The translations under genes were made by a program, and so were the position numbers. DNA of 64,000 nucleotides from NCBI GenBank assembly GCA_027487485.1, contig JAIYDN010000018.1, positions 62,001-126,000 on the forward strand, given 5' to 3'. Below the pieces are notes generated by a model that was not told the DNA's origin, ran no database searches, and was given only the letters and a program-made list of their open reading frames with translations. Within the stretch, counting starts at the first letter, position 1; the number at the start of each line of letters is the position of its first letter. Positions 53,626 to 58,276 of the stretch are shown here, one piece after another. The DNA comes from Planctomycetaceae bacterium (GTDB lineage: Bacteria > Planctomycetota > Planctomycetia > Pirellulales > Pirellulaceae).

Positions 53626-55268
53626 CATTGAGTCGCCAAGGGACAGGCTATGTAGGACAATGGATACACCGTTTTGATTGCTGATATCGGGCCTGACTTT
53701 AGTGGCTTGACCTCGGAAAAAATCGAGCTGTAATCTATGTAATTCAGGATGCATGAATCGAAGTGTGAACACCGTTACCTGGGTTCATACTCGATTCGCT
53801 CAGATTCTATCGTTTCCAACTTCCGGTTCTTCGTCCAAGTTGACCTTACATTATTGTAAAGCAAAACATAAAGTTGCTGCTGAACGCATATGCGGTCGTC
53901 GCCAACGGTTAGTTAGTCCTGTTGGTAGCGGAAGCGGCCTAGCCCCGGCCGCTGCCAGCGGCGAGGAATCTAATTCACCGCACGCTCAAGGTCGTTGGGG
54001 TCTCTTCCGACGATGCCTTTTTGGATGGCCTTGTAATCTGTTTTCGTAAGACGACTGGTAATAAGAGCTGTTTGATGTTGGAAACTCGAACTTTGAAATC
54101 GTAGGTTCCGAGCCCTTTTTCGTTTCCATCGCCATTTGCCTTGTAACTGCCAACTACGCACTATCAACTTCCAACTTTAAGAAATTCGCTTTCCGTCTGT
54201 TTTATTCGGGCCGGGAGTAACAACTCCGCCGAGACGAGATCGACGGAAGCGGCCCTCGCGCGGAGGCGAGCGCGACAGAGATGGGCTGGGCAAGGGATCA
54301 TTCTAATGCTTCGATGCCTACCTAAATTCGATGATTGATCATTGCCCATTACTTATCGCTCATCGCTCTTTGCTCATCGCTTTCCGTCGGGCTTGCCCCG
54401 GCCGGAAGCAGCAACTGAAAGCTACAAGCAAAGCAACCAATCGATATTGCATTTCGGTTCTGGGCCTCCGTCGGGCTTGTCCCGGTCGGAGCCTGCGAGA
54501 TCGCTCGGGCCGGAATGTACCATTCAGTTGTGCGCTCCGCCGAGACAAGCTCGACGGAAGCGGAAGCGGAAGCGGGCACGGGAGGAGAGGAGCTTGTGGG
54601 TAGCTTTCAGTTGTACGCCCCGCCGAGGCAAGCTCGACGGAAGCGGACCTCGCGCGGAAGCGGACCTCGCGCGGAAGCGGACCTCGCGCGGAGGCGGACC
54701 TCGCGCGGAGGCGGCCCTGCAGCGGAGGCGACCGCGACAGAGATTGGCGGAGCAAGCGATCATTCGAATGCTTCGATGCTTATTCAAATTCGCTCATTGC
54801 TCTTTGCTTATCCCTCATCGCTCATTGCTTATCACTTATCGCTTTCCGTCGGGCTTGCCCCGGCCGGGAGCAGCAACTGAAAGCTACAGGCAAAGCGACC
54901 AATCGATATTGCATTTCGGTTCTAGGCCTCCGTCGGGCTTGTCCCGGTCGGAGCCTGCGAGATCGCTCGGTTCGGAATGTAGCATTCAGTTGTGCGCTCC
55001 GCCGAGACAAGCTCGACGGAAGCAGATGCGCGCGGGAGGAGAGGAGCCAGTGGGTAGCTTTCAGTTGTGCGCCCCGCCGAGGCGAGCTCGACGGAAGCGA
55101 ACCTCGCGAGGAAGCGAGCGCGATGGAGGCCAGAAGGGCAAGCAATCATTCCATTGCTTCGATACCTAGCCAATTTCGATCATCGATCATCGATCATCGA
55201 TCATTGCTTATTGCTTATTGCTTATTGCTTATCATCGGGCTTGCCCCGGTCGGAGCCTGCGAGTCCGC
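53626..55268. repeat. REP-like hairpin cluster with a 462-bp tandem duplication
   Basis: No gene is supported. The region carries at least five copies of a REP-like hairpin with consensus CGCCGAGACAAGCTCGACGG (near 54220, 54538, 54620, 55000 and 55076) and about five copies of a related element in the opposite orientation (CGTCGGGCTTGCCCCGGCCG type at 54385, 54469, 54847, 54931 and 55232). The block from about 54385 is repeated once from 54847 with an exact 462-base offset. CGCGCGGAAGCGGACCT-type units form a tandem run at about 54637-54735, and heptamer runs occur at 55178-55230. The 275-residue ORF through here is repeat-derived. Confidence 0.82.
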
Positions 55269-56057
55269 TCAAGATTGATTCTGCCAAATCACGCCGCGAT
55301 CGTAGCTTCCGAATGTGCCTGCGTAAAAACTGTACTTCAATATAGGTTTCATCTCATACACATACGCAATGTTGTTCATCAAGGATAACGCAATCGACTG
55401 AGGCGGTTCGGTTACTCCCGCTCCAAGCAAGATGTGAATGTGATTGCTGAGCAACCCGATTCGCGATAGTCGCCAAGACTTCTTCTTCGCCGATGCAACA
55501 ATGATCTGGCGAACGCGACTAAGCCGATCTTCGCTTACATCATGCCAGCCTTCCGCATTCTCGAATACCATCTGTAGCGAGTTCAAATACTGACCATAAG
55601 TGCCAATCATCGGTTTCGAAAGATCTATCGAAGCATCGCAAAATTGCATCCCTGCGATCCTAGATTGCACATTTTGGGCCGCCATAGGATGCTTCTCGGT
55701 TTGACCCGCTACATATTGATCAAGAACCGTTGACTTCGCGTCACCCACGCTCGAAATGTAGTAGTTCCGACGAAACGCGCTTGGAATTTGATCGCGGAGG
55801 AGATACTGCAATCGTCCTTTGACGCTCTGCACGATATCCGATGGAGACGACTGCGGCTTCGTACTAGCTAGAAACTGAACCGTATTGTCCGATCGATTTT
55901 CGGCAGACAAAAGGCGAACTCCATCGGCTTCGGTCGCGACCGATAACGCATTGAACCAAATTTCTTTGGAAGGCAATGCCGCTTTTCCGAATAGCGATAG
56001 AGACCAATTCAATTGATATGCACTGTTGGTGTTCTCGGCTGTGTAGAGCGGTTGCAC
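55269..56057 (-). CDS. IS200/RAYT-like transposase-family protein
   Basis: 262 residues from a GTG at 56057. The protein looks like two tandem Y1/HUH-transposase-type modules. The first (QLNWSLSLFGK ... STKPQSSPSDIVQSVKGRLQ ... TVLDQYVAGQ) keeps the helix with the candidate catalytic Tyr in DQYVAGQ but its HUH motif is degraded (TVQF). The second (SWRLSRIGLLSNHIHILLG) has an intact HIH. IS200-like/RAYT enzymes nick and join single-stranded DNA at hairpins. The gene is surrounded on both sides by REP-like hairpins in both orientations, a genomic context that matches REP-associated tyrosine transposases. A decayed copy of its 5' end lies at 57899-58043. Confidence 0.75.
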   Translation of the reverse strand: MQPLYTAENTNSAYQLNWSLSLFGKAALPSKEIWFNALSVATEADGVRLLSAENRSDNTVQFLASTKPQSSPSDIVQSVKGRLQYLLRDQIPSAFRRNYYISSVGDAKSTVLDQYVAGQTEKHPMAAQNVQSRIAGMQFCDASIDLSKPMIGTYGQYLNSLQMVFENAEGWHDVSEDRLSRVRQIIVASAKKKSWRLSRIGLLSNHIHILLGAGVTEPPQSIALSLMNNIAYVYEMKPILKYSFYAGTFGSYDRGVIWQNQS

Positions 56058-56290
56058 GATTCGAGTTCGAATGATGGACAGATGAATCGCTGATTCCGCC
56101 GGGATAAACCCGAACGAAGATCGAGCATGCGGTTTATCGCTTTATTGTAGCGTTCAGTTGTTCGCTCCGCCGAGGCAAGCTCGACGGAAGCGGGTGCGTG
56201 ACCGATGGGATGCGGGCGAACAGGGCAGAGATTAGCACACCAAACCTGTTGCGAAGCTTGGGCACCTAGCCCAGCTTCGCATTGTTCATG
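56058..56290. repeat. Region upstream of the transposase gene with REP-like elements
   Basis: Positions 56058-56193 are closely matched by 58044-58180 upstream of the transposase pseudogene, including a REP-like hairpin (56152-56193). At 56234-56280 is a copy of the AGCACACCAAACC family followed by a near-perfect hairpin GCGAAGCTTGGGC / GCCCAGCTTCGC. Confidence 0.85.
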
Positions 56291-57706
56291 CTAATTCTTC
56301 GAAGCCTTGAGCTCGTCTTTTACTTTTTGCCGATTTACGAAGATTCCTGGTGCTTGAACCGCTGTCGCGAGCACTCTTTTTGCATCTTCGCTTTTGCCTC
56401 GATGCTTCAGTAGTTCCGCAATGTAGAAGGCCGTTTGAGGCGAAACGCTTGTTTGCCGTGCCAGTTCGCCAAGCATCCGATCGGCTGTGTCAACCGAGCC
56501 CAGCTTGAACTGAATCCATGCCGCAGTCGCAACCGTTGTCTCCACTTGCGGAGCACGCCTTAAATTGGTCTCGCTAATCTGAGCTGCTCGGGCTCGTTTT
56601 CCTTCGTCAGGTTGTTCTACCAAAACCAAAGCGAGCTGATCCGCGGCTTCAATGTCGTCTGGATTTGCTTGGTGAAGTGAAGAGAACACGGTTTCCGCCT
56701 CTTGCAAGTTACCCAAGAATCTCGCCGTAAGGCCTCGAAGGAATTTGATATCGCGAAGATTGTTATCCTCTTCCTTCAGCGAGTCAAAGACATTCGCGAT
56801 CTCTTCAGGTCGATCGTGCAACAACAGCCATCTCGCATACTCGATCCAATTGGCAACGGACGAATCCGAGGCTTTCAAGCCCGATTGAAACCAGGTTTCA
56901 CTTTCTTGCCAAGCTGGTCCTTGAGCAAGTTGCAGCGCCAACGCAAGCTCTGGTTGCGGAAGCTTGTTATCCAGTTTCTTGGCTTCTGACAGACTCTTGA
57001 TGGCTGCCGCAACATCCCCCTGAGCGATTCGAATACGACTCAAGGCCACCAGCGGAAATGCGGCTTTCGGATCCCGTTGCATACACTGCTTGTACAGTTC
57101 GATCGATCTAGTCCATTGCTGCCGACGTTCCGCGGTTTCCGCGAGCAATTGGAGCAATCGTGTCTCGAAGGATTCCTTTCGAGATTCCGGAACGGGCTTC
57201 GTCGCAACAAGTAATTTCGCTTGCTGAAGCTGGATCCAAGCATCCGTCCATCGACCTGACCGTAATGCAATCTCCCCAAATGTCATATACGCAAGAGGGT
57301 CTTGCCCATTCGTTCGGACGTACACCTCCAACAGTGCAATCGCATCCGGAAAGCGACCGGCATCCATTAAAACCCAGGCCGTTAATATCTCTTTGGAAGG
57401 TAAGTCCGTCGAGTTCTTGATCGCTTCGGTCAGTAAACGCTCGAACTCATTCGGATTCCCTGCGCGATAGGCTGCTACAGCTTCCGTCAAAGATGCGCCC
57501 GCGAGCATCTCTAATGTCATGCCCATGATCGGCGCCTGAGTGACCGGAGTATCGGAAACGGGCTGATTGGTAGCCTGTGGCGTCTGCGTGGCCGGTGACG
57601 GCGTGGTCGGCGGTTGCGTCGCGTCCTGTCCAAAAATCGAACCCTGGACGGGAGCAAGTCCGACGAACAATAGTATGGCGACGCGTGACCAGTTCCAACG
57701 AATCAT
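56291..57706 (-). CDS. Secreted TPR-repeat protein
   Basis: 471 residues from the ATG at 57706 (MIRWNWSRVAILLFVGLA), which is the only candidate giving a normal signal peptide; the frame runs on to 57793 without similarity. A Pro/Thr/Gln-rich linker at about 30-65 is followed by at least six tetratricopeptide-like helical pairs with the W-x-x-A-I-x-x-Y/L spacing (for example RRQQWTRSIELYKQCMQRDP and GDVAAAIKSLSEAKKL). Such proteins act as scaffolds in the periplasm or on the cell surface. No enzymatic domain is present, and no partner is suggested by the neighbours. Confidence 0.82.
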   Translation of the reverse strand: MIRWNWSRVAILLFVGLAPVQGSIFGQDATQPPTTPSPATQTPQATNQPVSDTPVTQAPIMGMTLEMLAGASLTEAVAAYRAGNPNEFERLLTEAIKNSTDLPSKEILTAWVLMDAGRFPDAIALLEVYVRTNGQDPLAYMTFGEIALRSGRWTDAWIQLQQAKLLVATKPVPESRKESFETRLLQLLAETAERRQQWTRSIELYKQCMQRDPKAAFPLVALSRIRIAQGDVAAAIKSLSEAKKLDNKLPQPELALALQLAQGPAWQESETWFQSGLKASDSSVANWIEYARWLLLHDRPEEIANVFDSLKEEDNNLRDIKFLRGLTARFLGNLQEAETVFSSLHQANPDDIEAADQLALVLVEQPDEGKRARAAQISETNLRRAPQVETTVATAAWIQFKLGSVDTADRMLGELARQTSVSPQTAFYIAELLKHRGKSEDAKRVLATAVQAPGIFVNRQKVKDELKASKN

Positions 57707-58276
57707 TCGAAATTCACTTCTATGTAGGAATCCATCGAACCAAAAGATGCACTCTAGGCAGTCAAGCGTCTTATCATATCCCAAAAGTAACAAATCGCTA
57801 CCGAATGTGCCGCAGATCTGGTGGGCGAGATTTCGCTCCGGCTGATGGACGGCACATGAAATGTGCCTGCTATCTTAATTTTTGCCAGGTCAATTTACGG
57901 CGAACTCCATCGGCTTCGATCGCAAGCGATAACGCATGGAACCAAATTTTTCAGGAAGGCAATGCAGTTTTTCCGAAAAGCGATAACGACCAATTCAATT
58001 GATTGGCGCTTGGCGAGTCCTCAACTGCATAGCGCAGTTGCATGATTCGAATTCGAATGATGGGGGGATGAATCGCTGATTCCGCCGGGATAAACCCGAA
58101 CGGAGATCTGGGATGCGGCTTATCGCTTTATTGTAGCTTTCAGTTGTGCGCTCCGCCGAGACAAGCTCGACGGAAGCGGCTGGAAGCTTGACGGAAACGA
58201 GAGGGAAGCGAGTGCCAACCCGTGTAAGATTGCTAGGGAAACCGTTGGAGCCCCCCTACCCTGCTTGCTGCGACTG
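57707..58276. other. Spacer holding the transposase pseudogene and a REP-like hairpin
   Basis: Besides the pseudogene at 57899-58043, it contains the matched upstream segment (58044-58180) with a REP-like hairpin at 58138-58179, and a C-rich tract near 58251. No intact gene. Confidence 0.8.
57899..58043 (-). pseudogene. Truncated copy of the RAYT-like transposase start
   Basis: Read from an ATG at 58043, the minus strand gives MQLRYAVEDSPSANQLNWSL and then SLFGKTALPS, stop, KIWFHALSLAIEADGVR. This aligns residue by residue with the first 48 or so residues of the intact transposase (MQPLYTAENTNSAYQLNWSL...). A TGA replaces a codon in the middle, and similarity stops after EADGVR, so the copy is broken and truncated. 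Its upstream 137 bases, including a REP-like hairpin, match those of the intact gene. Confidence 0.93.

Follow-up and report, generated by a model that had tools for sequence, protein, structure and literature searches.

Organization of the locus

The window analysed here is a stretch of 64,000 nucleotides from a Planctomycetaceae bacterium (assembly GCA_027487485.1, contig JAIYDN010000018.1, positions 62,001 to 126,000), and the locus under study comprises an intact transposase gene, a broken copy of its beginning, a gene lying between both copies and a series of REP-type palindromes. The intact gene (55269..56057, minus strand) starts with GTG and encodes a two-domain Y1 transposase of 262 aa, identified by Pfam, NCBIfam and full-length relatives. 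The N-terminal Y1 domain (residues 1-140; 55638..56057, minus strand) keeps Tyr115 (55713-55715) and Gln119 (55701-55703) and has lost the HUH motif, this site being T59-V-Q61. The C-terminal Y1 domain (residues 147-262; 55272..55619, minus strand) contains His206 (55440-55442) and His208 (55434-55436) and stops before the tyrosine helix.

Upstream of the intact gene is a leader (56058..56146, minus strand) with an inner hairpin-like stretch, C (about 56092-56122), and beyond it the outer REP palindrome A (56147..56192, plus strand; nhmmer), a member of a genome-wide family with its GTAG foot on the gene side. The leader is common to the intact copy, the broken copy and a third copy on another contig, L004. 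The inner palindrome B (55233..55263, plus strand; nhmmer) adjoins the stop codon of the intact gene. The broken copy contains the first 48 codons with an ATG start and one stop (57899..58043, minus strand; alignment), its leader (58044..58132, minus strand; alignment) and its own REP A (58133..58178, plus strand; nhmmer and alignment).

The remaining repeats, all on the plus strand, are two copies of a miniature element A'-B-A (54382..54562 and 54844..55023; nhmmer and alignment), related by tandem duplication, and two single REP A (54600..54645 and 55054..55099; nhmmer), the last on the downstream side of the intact gene. The REP cluster beside the gene (window 54300-55030) contains a 269-bp tandem duplication at 89%.

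Between both copies lies a gene for a TPR-repeat protein (56291..57793, minus strand; Pfam), whose start, judged by eye, is probably near 57706. This gene is poorly conserved in the genus, being identified in 5 of 27 genomes at E 1e-20 (its own included) with 43% identity in the best of the others, and none of the four neighbours tested was present at the TPR-gene loci that were fetched.

Comparison of the intact and broken copies

Local alignment of 55913-56196 with 57899-58182 covered 284 bp at 86% identity (E 1.6e-89), the pair being also recovered independently, and the score was 366, whereas 300 shuffles of the second stretch reached 28 at most. The initial annotation had described the minus strand at 57899-58043 as a repeat of the first 48 or so residues of the transposase with one stop, preceded by DNA that matches the upstream segment of the intact gene with its REP hairpin. 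The alignment, far better than shuffled sequence, bears this out: the coding part has 117/145 identical positions, the leader 79/88 and the REP, which lies upstream in both copies (56147-56192 and 58133-58178), 44/47. The start codons are GTG in the intact copy and ATG in the broken one, as had been stated.

The broken copy is formed by about 48 transposase codons, the leader and the REP palindrome, and its coding part reads, stop included, MQLRYAVEDSPSANQLNWSLSLFGKTALPS*KIWFHALSLAIEADGVR. Similarity ends at 57899 under the main scoring and at 57878 under a laxer DNA scoring; a tblastn-type match extends it to about 57855, with 54% identity over residues 3-63 and two stops. Of the coding differences, 12 are at codon position 1, 6 at position 2 and 10 at position 3, a spread which together with the stop codon indicates little coding constraint on the broken copy.

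A third copy of the same upstream segment was identified by searching the genome. This copy (L004, G000:C3:376989-377128, 83%) is on another contig and lacks the gene: it begins at the start codon and continues through the whole REP, and it is fused to a second type of miniature element, of which three copies were aligned. The earlier proposal of REP, leader and gene start as a mobile unit survives in part: a portion of the unit has been copied, but the left breaks of the two partial copies differ and a clean insertion is seen in neither. In all likelihood the broken copy is an old relic truncated at its 3' side, in which 57899-58182 is the right end of a unit (REP, leader and gene start) whose 3' part was lost, or which was copied partially.

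The age of the pair was judged against G002, a sister species whose best long matches to the source genome are 89-94% identical (in regions that match for 300 bp or more); two others, about 310 bp long and at 78-81%, resemble repeats. The divergence between the intact and broken copies, 14%, exceeds that between both genomes in those best long matches, so the pair gives no evidence of recent movement.

The REPs of both species could also be compared in place. Eight of the 13 REP regions of G002 match a fetched REP region of the source genome over at least 300 bp, and four junctions were aligned in detail. In one the source genome has an extra REP unit of 68 bp; in another it has A'-B-A where G002 has only A and other adjoining sequence; the last two share the REP, one of them at a contig end of G002, where copy numbers are not comparable. 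G002 (about 77% complete, about 970 contigs), in which the 13 REPs are present, yielded no relative of the transposase. A separate observation concerns L187 (G002:C499), in which bases 1058-1217 contain about 158 bp missing at the matching place of the source genome (C7 near 12640). This stretch resembles several other sites of the source genome and probably represents one more miniature repeat, with an empty site.

REP repeats and miniature elements

The REP A pattern was identified 84 times in the source genome (49 forward and 35 reverse), with no match for the reversed-pattern control. Elsewhere in the genus it was found in G002 (13) and G022 (2), and it is totally absent in 24 of the 27 genomes. 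Eighteen A'-B-A miniature elements, picked by eye from the nhmmer matches, were aligned, their ends being the outer sides of the hairpins. The flanks of these elements mostly differ; exceptions are the C17/C7 pair and two elements on C87, which share left flanks. Several elements present additional copies of REP A to their right.

Folded alone, the REP hairpins are of modest stability (z -1.5, -1.7 and -0.7), palindrome B is no better than its shuffles (z +0.27) and the leader stretch C reaches z -1.05 at best. Covariation was scored in 14 distinct REP copies at four inner pairs selected by eye, with pairing in 56 of 56 cells; the score was reached by 0 of 500 shuffles and the count of double-change pairs (2) by 138 of 500. 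The hairpin is better supported by covariation between copies than by folding, with the reservation that the double-change count was so often reached by shuffles. The single Rfam match up to E 1 was mir-H2, taken as chance since its 25.1 bits compare with a cut-off of 92.

The two-domain transposase

Pfam Y1_Tnp matches the window protein in two stretches (E 1.5e-11), and the sole NCBIfam match is an IS200/IS605 model at 43.7 bits, under its cut-off of 55 bits. An 18-row family profile was compared with proteins of known structure. On PDB 2f4f, profile positions 147-221 (C-domain) align with 3-77 of the chain, the HUH part, and profile positions 66-121 (N-domain) with 69-129, the tyrosine part. 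The profile also aligns 2a6m with the N-domain (3-125) and 2fyx with the C-domain (149-256), and the E. coli TnpAREP structure 4er8 was matched at E 0.67 only. With hhalign, each half matched five single-domain Y1 proteins (E 5.5e-11 for the N half and 2.6e-13 for the C half), and the match of both halves with each other was weaker (79% probability, E 1.6e-5). The Pfam matches of the window protein with E up to 1 included no HTH model. Judged by these profile comparisons, the chain is a fusion of two Y1 transposase domains. Ten further Y1_Tnp places were observed in the source genome besides the window gene (L021-L027 and L029-L031).

Conservation of the catalytic residues was evaluated in an alignment of 48 rows from 56 distinct profile hits. 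The eight rows dropped (L036, L040, L046, L124, L098, L005, L061 and L062) were partial, at contig edges, single-domain or a cut copy of the window gene. L127, whose C-terminus runs into foreign sequence, is in the 48 and was left out of the flank test, the tree and the domain profiles. Among the aligned members Tyr115, Gln119 and His206 are present in 48/48 and His208 in 47/48, the second His being lost in L125; these rows are not independent, some being about 95% identical, and were found by a profile already holding the catalytic residues. Invariance in all 48 rows extends further only to Lys80, Gly81, Gly105 and Asn228 of the window protein.

The complementary positions are mostly empty. 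HxH was identified at the N-domain site in none of the 48, its second His being mostly replaced by Gln (35/48), and 44 of the 48 (L127 among them) lack Tyr at the C-domain catalytic position. Four rows have Tyr there, none with Gln at +4: in L042 it is apparently a chance Tyr in the tail and in L044, L053 and L058 it lies in a short extra helix-like stretch.

For the window gene against seven relatives, NG86 gave a dS in one case (3.5), the other six not being estimable, and selection was thus judged from other pairs. In 9 of 19 pairs of relatives dN/dS is about 0.09-0.21 (dS 0.09-1.53), the rest being saturated or not estimable; on these codon comparisons, the transposase is under purifying selection in the relatives.

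Some copies in other genomes are altered. L159, L160, L161 and L162 are frameshifted in the linker between domains, about residues 141-154; programmed frameshifting or a two-gene form was considered for them and they were treated as decay, the frameshift of L159 being a 10-bp tandem duplication. Deletion derivatives were observed in L164, L163, L166 and L175, the first being an in-frame fusion of residues 1-52 to 205-256.

Distribution and flanks of the family

Transposase matches were identified in 12 of 27 genomes of the genus (E 1e-10) and in at least 36 of 397 genomes of the class sample (E 1e-15), source included in both. In the phylum sample, at least 94 of 392 genomes had a match at E 1e-3, mostly to single-domain Y1 proteins, and full-length two-domain matches were found in at least the source genome, G153, G100 and G169. 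Up to six candidates were scored per genome in the class and phylum searches, so these counts are lower bounds. The genome contigs searched contained one close relative, L054 (63%), and the plasmid search gave no relative of the transposase.

The tree comprises 53 rows, 47 plus six fetched later, with midpoint root only and without L127. A branch with 100/99 support separates four rows having a second tyrosine helix (L044, L053, L058 and L170) from the 49 without it; L042, with its lone Tyr at the C-domain position, is among the 49. The source genus has its rows dispersed across the tree, a pattern suggestive of transfer or repeated loss.

The flank test comprised 47 rows. A repeat between both gene flanks scoring above 40 was identified in 46 of 47 members, inverted or direct, and inverted in 36; the shuffle maximum was 30 (200 shuffles), a null scored for inverted repeats, the direct score having no null of its own. 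Flanks paired across members had a 95% point of 36 and a highest score of 157, the high scores arising because the members are related. The flanks of the window copy scored 31 inverted, below 40, and 81 direct, with no clean inverted pair. Of 37 hairpins, 24 have a TAGC foot, as compared with 10 in the control, a weak enrichment concerning only 14 of the 47 members.

Two other genomes were searched with their own flanks. In G589 the cognate flank has 20 matches, 4 of them at the gene itself. There (L105:1100-2700) the gene was seen to lie flush between REP arrays, with its start ATG and stop TAG at repeat feet. For the flank of G739, 5 matches were obtained, itself counted, and all of them lie within about 1.5 kb; dispersal of the REPs is therefore not universal.

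Comparison with known systems

Y1 proteins are divided in three classes and twelve subclasses in PMC6006769, where a few unexpectedly long proteins were discarded; in the accessible part of that paper, none of the classes and subclasses is a two-domain protein with a split site. Nor was such a fusion recognised in the literature search, which covered few subscription papers.

The nearest enzymes are the IS200/IS605 TnpA such as those of IS608 and ISDra2 (subclass 1.1 of PMC6006769). The window protein shares with them the Y1 fold, in both halves, and both the Y---Q helix and HUH, though in different halves of the chain; with the IS608 dimer it would also share the trans arrangement of the active site. 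Differences are the size, TnpA being a single domain of about 150 aa and the window protein having 262 aa and two Y1 domains, and the assembly, TnpA being a homodimer with two sites whereas this is a fused chain with one predicted composite site, beside REPs and in low copy.

RAYT or TnpAREP proteins (class 2 of PMC6006769) are similar in that the gene adjoins REPs bearing a GTAG foot, copy number is low and dispersed REPs and composite repeats are many. Dispersed cognate REPs were identified in the source genome (84) and in G589 (20) but not in G739, and flank repeats are inverted above 40 in 36 of 47 members, the window copy (31) not being one of them. However, the Y-motif given for RAYT is Y---NP (PMC6006769) and Y---Q is found here in 48/48, with no Y---NP; the single HUH and Tyr domain of RAYT is replaced by two domains; and GTAG of the outer REP is about 12 nt from the folded stem, whereas in RAYT REPs it is directly beside the stem.

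Class 3 TnpAY1 (Planctomycetes, Acidobacteria and Proteobacteria) also occur in planctomycetes and have Tyr and Gln in the Y motif. According to PMC6006769, they have Y----Q, about 178 aa and HUH and Tyr in one core domain, unlike the Y---Q and 262 aa of the window family. TIRYT (subclass 2.1) have Y---NP and a C-terminal HTH, and the window protein has neither. The miniature elements resemble REPINs and BIMEs in being formed by inverted REPs, and differ in having three palindromes, A'-B-A, with GTAG feet inward and a B resembling the palindrome at the transposase stop codon.

The label "RAYT-like" in the initial annotation is thus half right: a Y1 transposase is tied to a REP family, but with Y---Q in place of Y---NP and with two domains. 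Because the motif and the single-domain organization of RAYT are absent while REP dispersal is present, the system is called here, on its sequence features, a putative REP-associated Y1 element of a new type and not a RAYT.

Proposed mechanism and alternative explanations

In IS608 the active site is formed in trans: one subunit contributes its tyrosine helix, on which Q131 binds metal, and the other its HUH (PMC5934647). We consider it probable that planctomycete REP-associated units encode a fused two-domain Y1 protein with one composite site, and that the broken copy is an old relic of such a unit. The N-domain would supply the nucleophilic tyrosine and the metal-binding glutamine and the C-domain the HUH histidines, so that a single chain would make one composite site in the trans layout that IS608 TnpA gets by homodimerising. 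By homology, Tyr115 is predicted close to His206 and His208, and their working as one composite site would fit the conservation and the purifying selection in the relatives. We infer that the palindromes are the places where the protein cleaves and joins single-stranded REP DNA, and both the A'-B-A elements of about 172 bp and the REPs dispersed in the genome may be its non-autonomous derivatives. A more speculative version, which we hold only tentatively and think rather unlikely in full, is a pseudo-dimer with one hard-wired trans site, each domain reading a different palindrome (A by one, B or C by the other); cutting and joining would then proceed without the two-site exchange of IS608.

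The function of the protein could be another. It may have been domesticated for a host role in DNA binding or single-strand processing, the REPs having spread earlier or otherwise, and the 1-4 matches per carrying genome, the purifying selection and the plasmids without match agree with such a role. We find this doubtful: conservation is among the highest at the four predicted catalytic residues, the repeats adjoin the genes, and the members of one genus are scattered over the tree as expected of a mobile unit. That the protein is an ordinary RAYT whose second half is a mere extra domain is very improbable. REPs beside the gene, low copy number and the presence of both HUH and Tyr in the chain agree with it, but Y---Q stands in place of Y---NP, both halves match Y1 enzymes and the distribution of the catalytic residues, split between the halves, contradicts it.

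For the broken copy, the alternative is a local origin: recombination between REPs would have duplicated REP A, leader and gene start, the duplicate being later split off by the TPR gene and eroded. The copies are only 1986 bp apart and in direct orientation, tandem duplications of REP units are present at the locus, and the number of REP units differs from G002 at one of the four shared sites aligned in detail. This is a serious possibility, although we lean against it; the leader and REP of L004, on another contig, are unexplained by a local duplication.

Under the preferred reading, a fused enzyme with one composite site, the family bears on how Y1 transposases work. IS608 TnpA has two active sites, each from two subunits, and a natural fusion with one tyrosine and one HUH raises the question of whether Y1 strand exchange can proceed with a single composite site. 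The origin of the catalytic split may also be visible in the family, in the four rows that have a second tyrosine helix as against the 49 that do not. Finally, the REP-type repeats are linked here to an enzyme of IS200 type and not to a RAYT, which suggests that the association with REPs may have arisen more than once.
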